Source: Mesobacillus subterraneus (GTDB lineage Bacteria > Bacillota > Bacilli > Bacillales > Cytobacillaceae). Taken from it: 33,775 nt of DNA. A program made the translations under genes and the position numbers. Where the stretch lies: the NCBI RefSeq assembly GCF_000934845.1, contig NZ_JXIQ01000064.1:1-33775 (forward strand), given 5' to 3'. Below, one piece after another: positions 21,394 through 30,062 of the stretch. Within the stretch, counting starts at the first letter, position 1, and each line of letters opens with the position of its first letter. Below the pieces are notes generated by a model. That model made no database searches and was not told the DNA's origin. It was given only the letters and a program-made list of their open reading frames with translations.

Positions 21394-23808
21394 TTAGTTA
21401 GCAACAATGTTGACAAGCTTCCCTGGGACTGCAATTACCTTGCGGACTGTCTTGCCATTGATTTGTTCTTTAACGGTATTATCGCCCATCGCGATTTGCT
21501 CAAGCGTTTCTCTGTTGGCATCGGCGGGTACCATCATTTTTGCTTTGATCTTGCCGTTCACCTGGACTACGATTTCGACTTCGTCTTCGACTAGCTTGGC
21601 TTCATCATATGCAGGCCATGCTGCATAAGTGATCGACTCGCTATGTCCTAGCTTTTCCCAAAGTTCTTCCGTGATATGCGGTGCGATTGGCGCAAGCATT
21701 TTCACGAATCCTTCGACATAAGGCTTAGGAAGCTCCTCAGCCTTATACGCTTCGTTTATAAAAATCATCATTTGGGAGATTGCAGTATTGAACCGAAGTC
21801 CTTCATAAGCTTCCGTTACCTTTTTAACCGTCTGGTGGTAGACTCTTTCAAGATTCGGGTTTTCCGCGTCCTTGATTTTCAAGCTCAGGTTGCCATTGTC
21901 TTCAACGAATAGGCGCCAGATGCGGTCAAGGAACCGACGCGAACCGTCAAGCCCATTGGCTGACCATGCAATTGAAGCATCAAGCGGTCCCATGAACATT
22001 TCATAAAGGCGTAGTGTATCGGCACCATGGCTTCCGACGATTTCATCCGGGTTGACTACATTGCCTTTTGATTTGCTCATTTTTTCATTGTTTTCGCCAA
22101 GGATCATCCCTTGGTTGAAAAGCTTCTGAAATGGCTCTTTTGTATGAACAACGCCTAAATCGTACAGGACCTTGTGCCAGAAACGAGCGTAAAGCAAGTG
22201 CAGAACTGCATGTTCTGCTCCTCCAATATAAATATCAACAGGCAGCCATTGCTTTAATTTTTCTTCATCTGCAAGTGCCTGATCATTTTTCGGATCAATG
22301 TAGCGCAGGTAGTACCAGCAGCTGCCAGCCCATTGCGGCATCGTATTCGTTTCCCTGCGCCCTTTTTTGCCCGTTTTAGAATCGATGACATTCACCCAGC
22401 CATCAATATTGGCAAGCGGGGACTCACCTGTACCGGATGGCTTTATTTCCGTTGTTTTTGGAAGGACAAGCGGCAGCTGATCTTCTGGAACAGCTGTCAT
22501 GGTGCCATCTTCCCAGTGGATGATTGGAATCGGCTCGCCCCAATAACGCTGGCGGCTGAACAACCAGTCGCGAAGGCGGTAAGTAACCTTCTTGTTGCCA
22601 ATGCCTTTTTCTTCAAGCCAGGCAATCATCTTGCTGATGGCATCTTCCTTGTTCATGCCGTTAAGGAATTCAGAGTTTACGTGATCACCGTCGCCAGTAT
22701 ACGCTTCTTCCTGGACGTTTCCGCCGGCCACGACTTCCTTGATTTCTAAATTGAATTTTTTAGCAAACTCGTAGTCACGCTCATCATGCGCAGGAACTGC
22801 CATGATCGCGCCTGTTCCGTATGATACAAGAACATAGTCTGCGATCCAGACTGGCATTTTTTCGCCATTGGCTGGATTGATCGCGAACGCACCGGTGAAC
22901 ACACCAGTTTTGTCTTTGGCTAGATCGGTGCGCTCTAAGTCACTCTTGCTCTTGATTTCATCGATATATTTTTCGACAGCAGCCTTTTGCTCAGCTGTTG
23001 TAATTTTATCCACCAGCTGGTGTTCGGGTGCAAGCACTGCATAAGTTGCACCGAATAGTGTATCCGGACGAGTTGTGAACACCGTAAATGTATCCTGATT
23101 GCCTTCGATATGGAAGGTGATTTCTGCCCCTTCTGAACGGCCAATCCAGTTGCGTTGCATATCCTTTAGGCTTTCCGGCCAATCAAGTAAATCTAGATCC
23201 TCCAGCAGCCGATCTGCGTAGGCAGTGATTTTAAGCATCCACTGTCTCATCGGACGGCGCTCGACCGGATGTCCACCGCGCTCACTTTTTCCATCGATTA
23301 CTTCTTCGTTCGCTAAAACGGTTCCAAGTGCTGGACACCAGTTAACAGCGACTTCGTCAATATAAGCAAGCCCCTTTTCATAAAGCTTCAGGAAAATCCA
23401 CTGAGTCCACTTATAGTATTCAGGGTCCGTTGTGTTGACTTCGCGGTCCCAGTCGTATGAAAACCCTAATGCCTTGATTTGGCGGCGAAAAGTGTTGATG
23501 TTTTTCTCTGTGAACTCGGCCGGGTCATTCCCAGTGTCCAGTGCATATTGCTCTGCCGGCAGTCCAAACGCATCCCAGCCCATTGGATGGAGAACGTTGA
23601 ATCCTTGCATCCTTTTCATCCGGGAAAGGATATCCGTCGCTGTGTACCCTTCCGGATGGCCTACGTGCAGGCCGGCTCCAGATGGATACGGGAACATATC
23701 CAGCGCATAGAACTTCTCTTTGCCTTTATCTTCCGTTGTTTTAAACGTTTTGTTCTGTTCCCAATGCGATTGCCATTTTTTTTCGATTTCCTGGTGGTTA
23801 AAACTCAT
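21394..23808 (-). CDS. leuS: Leucyl-tRNA synthetase
   Basis: Charges tRNA-Leu with leucine. 804 residues, identical in length to B. subtilis LeuS. Class I signatures: HVGH at 48-51 (the HIGH motif) and KMSKS at 576-580. A large CP1 editing domain lies between them (about 220-420, with [12 protein letters not shown] and [15 protein letters not shown]). The anticodon-binding domain and a C-terminal domain ending [15 protein letters not shown] are intact. AGGAGG lies ten bases before the ATG. Expression is controlled by the T-box leader upstream. Confidence 0.98.
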
Positions 23809-23861: not shown

Positions 23862-24119
23862 AAAAAAAATAAAAAACTCCCGCCCCTGTAAAGGGACGAG
23901 AGATAATGTATGATCTCCCGCGGTACCACCCAAATTAGTGTGCAACACTCGCTTCATTCACCCTTAACGCGGAAAAACGGCAAACGCTACTTGTTGGTTC
24001 ACGTCTGCAACTCAAAGGCGAGTTCATGATGGATCCTGTCTGGCTTGCAGCGACCGCCAGCTCTCTACATCAGGCTTTGCACCATTACTACTCCTTGTCG
24101 AAGTCTTTCATTATGAATA
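23862..24119 (-). promoter_or_regulatory. T-box leader (leucine) of leuS
   Basis: An RNA switch that senses uncharged tRNA-Leu and permits readthrough into leuS. Minus strand, in order: Stem I with AGAGAG and a GCTGGC/GCCAG arm; GAA-CTC in the specifier loop, with the CUC leucine codon at 24020-24022; the T-box sequence GGGTGGTACCGCGGG at about 23917-23931; then the terminator hairpin CTCTCGTCCC/GGGGCGGGAG (23877-23902) and a T-run. The antiterminator would use the T-box 5' part against the left terminator arm. The start of transcription is inferred from the promoter at 24127-24155. Confidence 0.95.
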
Positions 24120-27990: not shown

Positions 27991-28006
27991 TTCCGAACTT
28001 CCGGAC
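27991..28006. promoter_or_regulatory. Activator operator 3, overlapping the activator stop codon
   Basis: Minus strand GTCCGGAAGTTCGGAA, 20 bases from operator 2 (about two turns) and ending on the first base of the activator gene's stop codon. One base short of the GTCC-N8-GGAC form. Confidence 0.65.
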
Positions 28007-29374
28007 TACAGGAGCCCGTATTTATGAAGTTTTTCATAGAGTGTTGATCTGCTGATCCCCAGTTCCCTGCAAACTTGGACTTTATCGTCATTATTTTCCT
28101 CTAGACTTTGCCTCAGTACCCATTTTTCTGTTTCTTCCATAATGTCCTTGAGCTTCTTATTATTGAATCGATACATGGCAGTCTGTGTTTGCAGGTAATC
28201 CGGCAAAGAGTTCAGCGTAATCTGCTCCCCTTTTGTCAAATGGACCGCAGCTTCAATGACGTTTTCCAATTCGCGGATATTTCCTGGCCAACTATAAGAC
28301 ATCAAAATTCCCATGACCGTTTTTTCTATTCCGGCAATCCGCTTGCCTAACCGGTTGGTAACTTTATCAATAAAATAGGCAATCAGCAACTTTAAGTCCT
28401 CCGCTCGTTCTCTTAAAGGAGGAATATTGAATGGAACGACATTGATCCGGTAAAAAAGATCCTCTCTGAATCGCTTCTCTTCAATCATGTTTTCAAGTGG
28501 CCTGTTCGTAGCAGCGATAATTCGGACATCGACAGAAATTGATTTGGTCGACCCGATCGGTTCTATTTCCCCATCCTGCAAGGCACGCAAAAGCTTCACC
28601 TGCATACTTAGTGGCATGTCCCCAATCTCATCCAGGAAGAGGGTGCCGCCACTTGCCAGCTGGAATTTCCCCTTCTTTCCCCCTTTTTTCGCTCCTGTAA
28701 AAGCACCCTCTTCATAGCCGAACAATTCGGATTCAAGCAGGTTTTCTGGTATTGCTCCGCAGTTCACCTTGATGAAGGGCTTCTGACTTCGATTGCTTAG
28801 CTGGTGGATGCTATGAGCAAATAATTCCTTTCCTGTTCCGCTCTCTCCTCTAATCAAAATCGAAACATCACTGTTGGAAACCATTTTCACTTTTTCTTTT
28901 AAACTGACCACCAGCTGCGACTCGCCAAGGATGTCATCCAGCGTATATTTCACCCCAGAATCAATTTTTTGGATATATGGCTGCATTCTTGTAAGCAGGC
29001 TTTTTACATGACTATCCATTTTCATCCATTCCTGTGTGTCCCTGAAAAAGACCGTACCGAAAGCTGCAACTACCTCGCCATTTTTCATGATGGGTACACG
29101 ATTGGCAATCATGTAACTACCTTTGATATATTGCAAATCTGCCAGTTCTTCCCTGGCCTGTCTTTGCAACAATGTGCATCCTAGTATTCTCGATCACTTG
29201 TGTCACATGCCGGCCAATCGTTTCTTCCCGATTGACCTCAAGGAATTCACAATAATTATGGTTGATGTAGATGATCCTTCCTTCCTGATCCACCACTACA
29301 AGCCACTCAAATGCATTCTCGACAATGATTTCCATAATATCAGCCGGGATAGGCAATAGCTTTGTTTTCATCAT
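28006..29374 (-). pseudogene. Sigma-54-dependent activator (PAS-AAA+-Fis HTH), interrupted by a one-base frameshift
   Basis: When the frame is restored it encodes about 455 residues: a PAS domain (20-110), an AAA+ domain with Walker A GESGTGKE (about 175-183), the sigma-54 contact loop GAFTGA (223-228) and Walker B FLDEIGD (246-252), and a C-terminal Fis-type helix-turn-helix (CRELGISRSTLYEKLHKYG). The PAS frame (29374 down) ends soon after KTGQ, and the rest continues one frame over from EELADLQYIKG. An extra G in the run at 29151-29153 explains this. AGGGGA precedes the paired ATGs. It presumably senses hydroxybutyrate or a derivative and drives the operon downstream. Confidence 0.8.
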
Positions 29375-29422: not shown

Positions 29423-29447
29423 AAAAAAGCACCTTGAAATTAGGTGC
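29423..29447 (-). terminator. Intrinsic terminator of the CueP-family gene
   Basis: Minus strand stem GCACCT/AGGTGC with a seven-base loop followed by TTTTTT, seven bases after the stop at 29454. Confidence 0.85.
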
Positions 29448-29453
29448 CTTCGT

Positions 29454-29981
29454 CTACATTAATTGCATGTTCGTGATGCAGGTCGGATCATTTCCAAAAG
29501 TGGATATTTCCGATTCAACACTTTTCCTGTCGGATTCTATCTTTATTTTGTACTTGTGATCACGCGGAAGCCATAAATCGATGAATCCATTTTGCTGGGT
29601 CATTCTCTTTTCGTCTACGACTACGTTCCCGGCCTCATCCTCGATGTACACATCAAACTCTTTTTCAACCAATTCTCCTTGACAACCTGTCAAGCTGTGG
29701 TTGCTTCAAGGATGGGTTTGATTTTCATAAGGTGCGATGGAGACGAAGAAGTCTTCTGCGGAAATATCATAAACTTGCTTGTTTCCTGCCTTGTCGGCAA
29801 TCACCAGCTCCTTAGCAGTAATGGAAGCGGTATTGCCCTCTATTTTGCCCGTGCTGTAGTCACTTACCAATTCCTTGATGTTTTGCATTTGTTTTTCAGG
29901 TTCGGCAGTATTATCGCCACTATTGCACCCAGCCAGAAAACCGGCAGCCAAAAAAACCATTCCGAGGATTTTAAATTTCAA
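29454..29981 (-). CDS. cueP: CueP-family lipoprotein with an in-frame UGA (candidate selenoprotein)
   Basis: 175 codons from TTG 29981, chosen because GAGGAGG lies eight bases upstream; the GTG at 29990 overlaps that site. The signal peptide ends in lipobox LAGC (C19), so the protein should sit outside the membrane. The body matches CueP, a copper-binding and cupric-reducing protein in Salmonella: IKELVSDYSTGKI, FFVSIAPYENQTHP, SLTGCQGELVEKEF, DLWLPRDHKYKI and PTCITNMQL. Codon 92, between HP and SNHS, is TGA (29706-29708). Frame is kept across it, so there is no frameshift. Position 92 aligns with Cys96 of Salmonella CueP; C100 and C168 align with Cys104 and Cys172 with equal spacing (8 and 68). 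Read-through as selenocysteine is an inference; a nonsense mutation is possible. Confidence 0.75.
29666..29705 (-). promoter_or_regulatory. SECIS-like stem-loop just after the in-frame UGA
   Basis: Minus strand, counting from the base after UGA: lower stem CAACCA (3-8) with TGGTTG (35-40); internal loop; upper stem CTTGACA (12-18) with TGTCAAG (22-28), all Watson-Crick; apical loop GGT (19-21). A helix starting right after UGA, about 40 nt in total and a GU-containing apical loop 16-37 nt downstream are the known features of bacterial SECIS elements such as that of E. coli fdhF. Confidence 0.6.
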
Positions 29982-30062
29982 CCCATTCACCTCCTCATTC
30001 TTATTTTAAATGGAAAATATGCATTTTTCATCGAGAAAAAAGCGGAACATTGTAGCCAGCAT

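Follow-up and report, generated by a model that had tools for sequence, protein, structure and literature searches.

The cueP frame carries a single in-frame TGA

Does the in-frame TGA of this gene end the protein, or does it encode selenocysteine (Sec)? The question concerns positions 29454–29981 of the window, as we call the whole 33,775-nt stretch of DNA analysed here, in which a sequence-only reading had proposed a Sec-containing form of the lipoprotein CueP. The gene lies at exactly these coordinates on the minus strand; the plus-strand frame over the same interval is not the gene. The predicted product of 175 aa runs from a TTG start (29981–29979) to a TAG stop (29456–29454), and the TTG is the likely start because a Shine-Dalgarno motif, AGGAGG (29990–29995, minus strand, read directly), lies 8 nt 5′ of it. 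Counted from this TTG, the TGA (29706–29708, minus strand) is codon 92, in agreement with the earlier numbering. When the minus strand from 29990 to 29454 was translated with TGA as U, the resulting 178 residues contained only this TGA, within the stretch NQTHP-U-SNHSLTGCQGEL.

The first codons of the frame (29925–29981, minus strand) show the motif of a lipoprotein signal peptide, with the lipobox LAGC and its Cys19 at 29925–29927; from signal peptide and lipobox motif alone, the product is predicted to be an extracytoplasmic, membrane-anchored lipoprotein. Directly 3′ of the TAG, at the end of the full frame and not at the TGA, stands a terminator-like hairpin (29425–29451, minus strand), a feature weak by itself, since one was found against 0.7 expected in shuffled sequences. 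A promoter scan gave results at chance level.

The CueP match continues across the TGA

We compared the translated frame with protein families and with Salmonella CueP. The Pfam model of CueP (PF21172) matched in a single frame on both sides of the TGA, with scores of 138.9 bits (genome search) and 145.2 bits (cut-off 27), and the NCBIfam model NF038094 likewise matched across it (182.2 bits, cut-off 60). The frame was intact but for this one TGA, as the sequence-only reading had held. Against NF038095, which describes the periplasmic metallochaperone CueP in the narrow sense, it scored 132.5 bits, under the cut-off of 195, and thus lies outside that family. In an alignment with Salmonella CueP (4GQZ; E 5e-27 over query residues 52–177), the TGA fell on the Cys of THPC, the first conserved Cys, and no gap occurred from there to the alignment end; because of this gapless course, the spacings of 8 and 68 residues claimed for the other two cysteines are confirmed together with the position of the TGA. 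All three Cys positions of CueP are kept, the first coded by TGA and the other two by Cys codons (Cys100, 29682–29684; Cys168, 29478–29480), with histidines nearby (His90, 29712–29714; His95, 29697–29699; all on the minus strand). We take the corresponding Salmonella residues to be Cys96, Cys104 and Cys172, so that Cys104, the second CueP Cys, is presumably Cys100 here.

An AlphaFold2 model was built from an alignment of 68 sequences (the window copy and 67 of the 80 named-genome loci described below), with TGA entered as Cys, and reached a mean pLDDT of 83.7. Its best PDB match in Foldseek was CueP itself (4gqz_A, E 8.5e-14, TM 0.74/0.82), and by this model Sec-CueP has the CueP fold. His90, position 92, His95, Cys100 and Cys168 were invariant in the 68-sequence alignment. 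A review (PMC7558416) places the CueP copper site in the C-terminal domain, where conserved Cys and His residues cluster on a single face, and states that CueP delivers copper to Cu/Zn superoxide dismutase. According to PMC13201067, Cys104 of Salmonella CueP forms a metal-thiolate complex, the C104S variant loses the copper-resistance effect, and ScsB and ScsC are reported to hand Cu(I) to CueP.

Codon 92 is TGA or a cysteine codon among homologues

The search of 151 genomes, including the window's own, returned matches in 71, of which 69 genomes with 75 loci were kept; weak partial hits in G041 and G099 and a partial second hit in G080 were left out, and the frameshifted cueP of G004 (L049) was counted as one locus. 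The results revealed TGA at codon 92 in 57 loci, TGT or TGC in 18 and no other codon, a pattern far beyond chance that speaks against decay. All 20 of the other same-genus genomes searched had a CueP copy, with TGA at this codon in each. Among named genomes, 48 copies had TGA and 32 had Cys, in a set that leans to close relatives because the best 80 of 417 were kept. Merging both sets by distinct gene end gave 127 copies (83 TGA, 44 Cys, no TAA or TAG); this number replaces an earlier count of 130, for which duplicates had been removed only between the two sets.

TGA copies occurred in records named Mesobacillus, Cytobacillus, Neobacillus, Robertmurraya and Litchfieldia, among others, and also in records named Schinkia, Metabacillus, Salipaludibacillus and Sporosarcina globispora; the names of some further records (Chryseobacterium and Pseudomonas, for example) seem to be wrong. 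Mesobacillus selenatarsenatis SF-1 has a TGA copy (L098). In a phylum sample, CueP matched in 10 of 398 genomes, two of which had TGA (the window's own and another of its genus), and a weak match below the cut-off (G451) had a TAA inside. CueP homologues were present in 22 plasmid records, all below 60% identity and none from genera with TGA copies. One genome (G046) carried three CueP copies (L035, L046 and L053), all with TGA, and two others (G067 and G122) carried one TGA copy and one Cys copy each.

A conserved SECIS-type hairpin follows the TGA

A bacterial SECIS element is a hairpin shortly after the UGA with a G in its apical loop. Behind the TGA of the window cueP we found a 7-bp hairpin (29678–29694, minus strand; nucleotides 12–28 after the TGA) with a GGU loop at 29685–29687, leaving 18 nt between the TGA and the loop, and the stretch folded with a z of −2.5. 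The hairpin has both of these features and is a predicted target of SelB. Its sequence CUUGACA-GGU-UGUCAAG was present in 63 of 69 distinct TGA sequences. All seven pairs (G-U allowed) formed in 83/83 distinct TGA copies compared to 3/44 Cys copies, and the GGT loop was present in 83/83 compared to 17/44.

Across the 69 distinct TGA sequences, 483 of 483 cells paired; four of the seven pairs never varied and two showed changes on both sides. With kinship not controlled, none of 500 shuffles attained the covariation score, whereas 132 of them did attain the number of pair types. In same-genus copies, dS was 0.048 for the seven codons of the hairpin and 0.872 for the remaining downstream codons, which indicates that the RNA, and not the protein alone, is conserved. 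Codon choice in the hairpin was near-fixed in TGA copies and varied in Cys copies; Gly99, for example, was GGT in 57/57 and 7/18, respectively.

A search of the own genome with the hairpin model scored 150 of 2205 first-look candidates and may therefore have passed over similar hairpins in other genes; it returned CueP at 67 bits and, apart from that, a single match with E 7.8. An Rfam scan of the window at the gathering threshold returned a T-box and nothing else. This T-box leader (RF00230, 131 bits; 23889–24110, minus strand) lies just upstream of a gene at 21394–23808 which, by eye, looks like leucyl-tRNA synthetase.

The host genome encodes the selenocysteine machinery

We searched the own genome for the genes that Sec insertion would need, the check that the sequence-only reading had named, and all were present: selA (556 bits), selB (368 bits), selC, the tRNA-Sec (58 bits; ARAGORN anticodon tca), and selD (394 bits), itself with one in-frame TGA. 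Judged by these genes, the host probably uses Sec. Formate dehydrogenase gave five matches over the family cut-off, two of them with one in-frame TGA each. FdhA and SelD are proteins unrelated to CueP; the likeness lies in an in-frame TGA and a hairpin behind it whose loop shows GGU; this GGU comes 18 nt after the TGA in both fdhA genes, as in cueP, but at 32 nt in selD. The two fdhA genes and selD are loci L186, L187 and L093, and a further FdhA-like stretch with one TGA lies on contig C23 of the same genome.

Of the 69 genomes, 53 have a TGA copy and 16 have none but Cys copies; selB was found in 52 and 8 of them, respectively (Fisher P = 1.2e-5, uncorrected for kinship). The one TGA genome with no selB match (G010) is 66% complete.

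Codons behind the TGA are under purifying selection

To the window copy we added 17 of the 20 other same-genus copies and calculated dN/dS on both sides of the TGA. The value was 0.091 for the codons after the TGA (0.084 when the hairpin was removed) and 0.118 for the 45 codons before it, close to the downstream value. These results indicate that the cueP codons behind the TGA are under purifying selection, and the dN/dS of these codons suggests that cueP is translated past the TGA.

TGA and cysteine codons interchange within the family

We mapped the Sec/Cys state on a single quickly built tree with 129 rows, from which the trait residue itself and L049/L165 (the same frameshifted gene) had been excluded. 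By parsimony the state changed 22 times, whereas shuffling the labels 500 times gave 37.5 changes on average and never fewer than 30. Since Sec and Cys swap 22 times on this one quick tree, Sec is not indispensable in CueP. Seven Cys copies from beyond the order, taken as the root, did not come out as a monophyletic outgroup. The numbers of gains and losses varied with the costs chosen, being 4 and 18 when costs were equal and 1 and 25, or 25 and 0, at other settings, so that the tree favours neither direction of change between Sec and Cys. Outside the order, seven CueP copies scored above the cut-off, all Cys, which is a hint that the Cys form may be the older one. Three distinct Cys copies with a full hairpin (L034, L036 and L170) look like recent Sec-to-Cys switches. 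As both forms are found in close relatives, Sec/Cys CueP offers a natural test case for why cells bear the cost of Sec.

Gene neighbourhoods of cueP

By Pfam, the neighbours of the window cueP are an MFS transporter on one side and a sigma-54 regulator on the other, and no copper gene was recognised beside cueP in the window. Relatives of the two neighbours were found within 4.5 kb of CueP at 11 (MFS) and 10 (sigma-54) of the best 80 loci, all TGA; they tell little on function because these loci are mostly the window's closest relatives, and both were rejected as CueP partners. The sigma-54-type activator itself (28006–29374, minus strand) is split into two overlapping frames with a break near 29153–29172. 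Its relatives form one frame of 454–478 aa in 9 of 10 loci and three pieces in L165, and the split in the window is probably a frameshift or a sequence error.

DsbD/CcdA-like genes (clusters 11 and 13, in which the Pfam scan covered representatives and the two DsbD_2 genes named next) lay within about 4.5 kb of CueP at 11 of 80 loci (3/48 TGA, 8/32 Cys), numbers that stand without a background count. The gene order in Sporosarcina globispora was multicopper oxidase, Sec-CueP, DsbD_2, and in Metabacillus malikii it was Sec-CueP, DsbD_2 and a metal-sensitive repressor of the CsoR type. At five loci (L149, L160, L167, L169 and L173), two of which have identical cueP, we found a P-type ATPase, a thioredoxin-like (ResA-like) protein, CcdA, Cys-CueP and DUF326, the last a small Cys-rich protein that we take to be a likely copper-storage protein. 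A thioredoxin-like (ResA-like) gene also lay about 4.6 kb upstream of CueP at three Mesobacillus loci (L100, L103 and L165). DUF1541-like proteins (representative scanned), some with lipoprotein-type N-termini, occurred within 4.5 kb of CueP at L106, L111, L144, L151 and L172.

Alternative readings of the TGA and of its function

On this evidence we are confident that UGA codon 92 of the window cueP stands for selenocysteine, inserted into the CueP protein: SelB and tRNA-Sec would read the codon, directed by the hairpin at nucleotides 12–28 after it. If the TGA were a true stop, the product would be a truncated lipoprotein of 91 residues, and this is what a reading by table 11, which ends at the TGA, and the list of open reading frames, which gives the front part alone, would yield. 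Such a stop is highly improbable in view of the purifying selection behind it (dN/dS 0.08–0.09), of the invariant Cys100 and Cys168 downstream and, as a weak point, of a terminator-like hairpin found only behind the full frame. Readthrough or a changed code that places another amino acid at the UGA, such as Trp or Cys, would likewise keep the frame open, but it is even harder to credit: Cys is the alternative residue in every one of the 44 distinct copies that lack the TGA, the hairpin in its complete form goes with TGA copies and resembles the host fdhA hairpins, TGA copies are associated with selB, and TGA terminates a same-genus CueP gene (L024). We give next to no weight to a pseudogene or a sequencing error, of which a single internal stop is the usual sign; the same codon is TGA in 83 of 127 distinct copies, which excludes sequencing error, and the other 44 have Cys codons, never TAA or TAG.

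With selenocysteine at codon 92, Sec92 would lie in the copper site together with Cys100, Cys168, His90 and His95. There it may act as a reactive selenol that binds Cu(I) or donates electrons to Cu(II). Its re-reduction could fall to a membrane thiol carrier of the CcdA/DsbD type. We hold the chances of this copper-site mechanism of Sec92 to be roughly even. A competing view concerns function and is compatible with Sec insertion: the protein may do a non-copper job outside the cytoplasm, where Sec92 and Cys100 would serve for general thiol/selenol oxidoreduction or for scavenging peroxide, and its binding of copper would be secondary or lost. Sec is usually a catalytic redox residue, DsbD/CcdA-like and thioredoxin-like (ResA-like) neighbours at some loci would fit such a job, and the window cueP has no recognised copper gene beside it. 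We nevertheless regard it as unlikely, because His90, His95, Cys100 and Cys168 of the CueP site are invariant in the alignment, and a multicopper oxidase, a P-type ATPase, DUF326 or a CsoR-type repressor lies near some Sec or Cys copies. The fullest version of the copper reading is put forward tentatively: Sec-CueP would be a surface selenium-dependent copper protein in which the Sec92 selenol directly coordinates copper or reduces Cu(II), with a CcdA/DsbD_2-type carrier to re-reduce it. The supply of selenium would thereby set how Bacillaceae and kin handle copper, with frequent switching between Sec and Cys from lineage to lineage.

Significance and comparison with known systems

The sequence-only reading knew of no described Sec form of CueP, and the sources covered here agree. 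Table 1 of an inventory published in 2026 (PMC13188914), which comprises 119 families and subfamilies of prokaryotic selenoproteins, does not include CueP, and a term search of the inventory's text returned no CueP, NF038094 or PF21172. No Sec form of CueP was among the literature matches listed, whose scope excluded most subscription papers, preprints and the original structure papers, and the NCBIfam name of the family (NF038094) does not mention selenium. The gene is apparently an undescribed Sec variant of the known CueP family in Bacillaceae and kin. With 83 distinct TGA copies in spore-forming bacteria, such genes make up a large selenoprotein family that also seems to be undescribed. 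The TGA cueP genes are probably mis-annotated, as standard gene-calling programs would break them off at the TGA. With a copper role, Sec-CueP would tie selenium supply to copper handling. Its hairpin is a short and clean putative SECIS with a strict GGU loop, suited to the study of SelB recognition in Gram-positives.

Compared with Salmonella CueP (4GQZ; PF21172; NF038094), the window protein is alike in sequence match, modelled fold, and the positions and spacing of its Cys and His residues; it differs in having the predicted Sec in place of the first Cys, in being a Bacillaceae-type lipoprotein and in scoring under the NF038095 cut-off. The proposed re-reduction of Sec92 by a CcdA/DsbD-type carrier would be comparable to the pairing of Salmonella CueP with its Scs disulfide-reductase partners. 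Among published selenoproteins, Table 1 of PMC13188914 includes metal-related families, namely CopZ-like 2Fe-2S proteins, the SO_0444 Cu/Zn efflux transporter and mercury proteins; they share with the candidate Sec-CueP a Sec residue in a metal-tied protein, but belong to families other than CueP.
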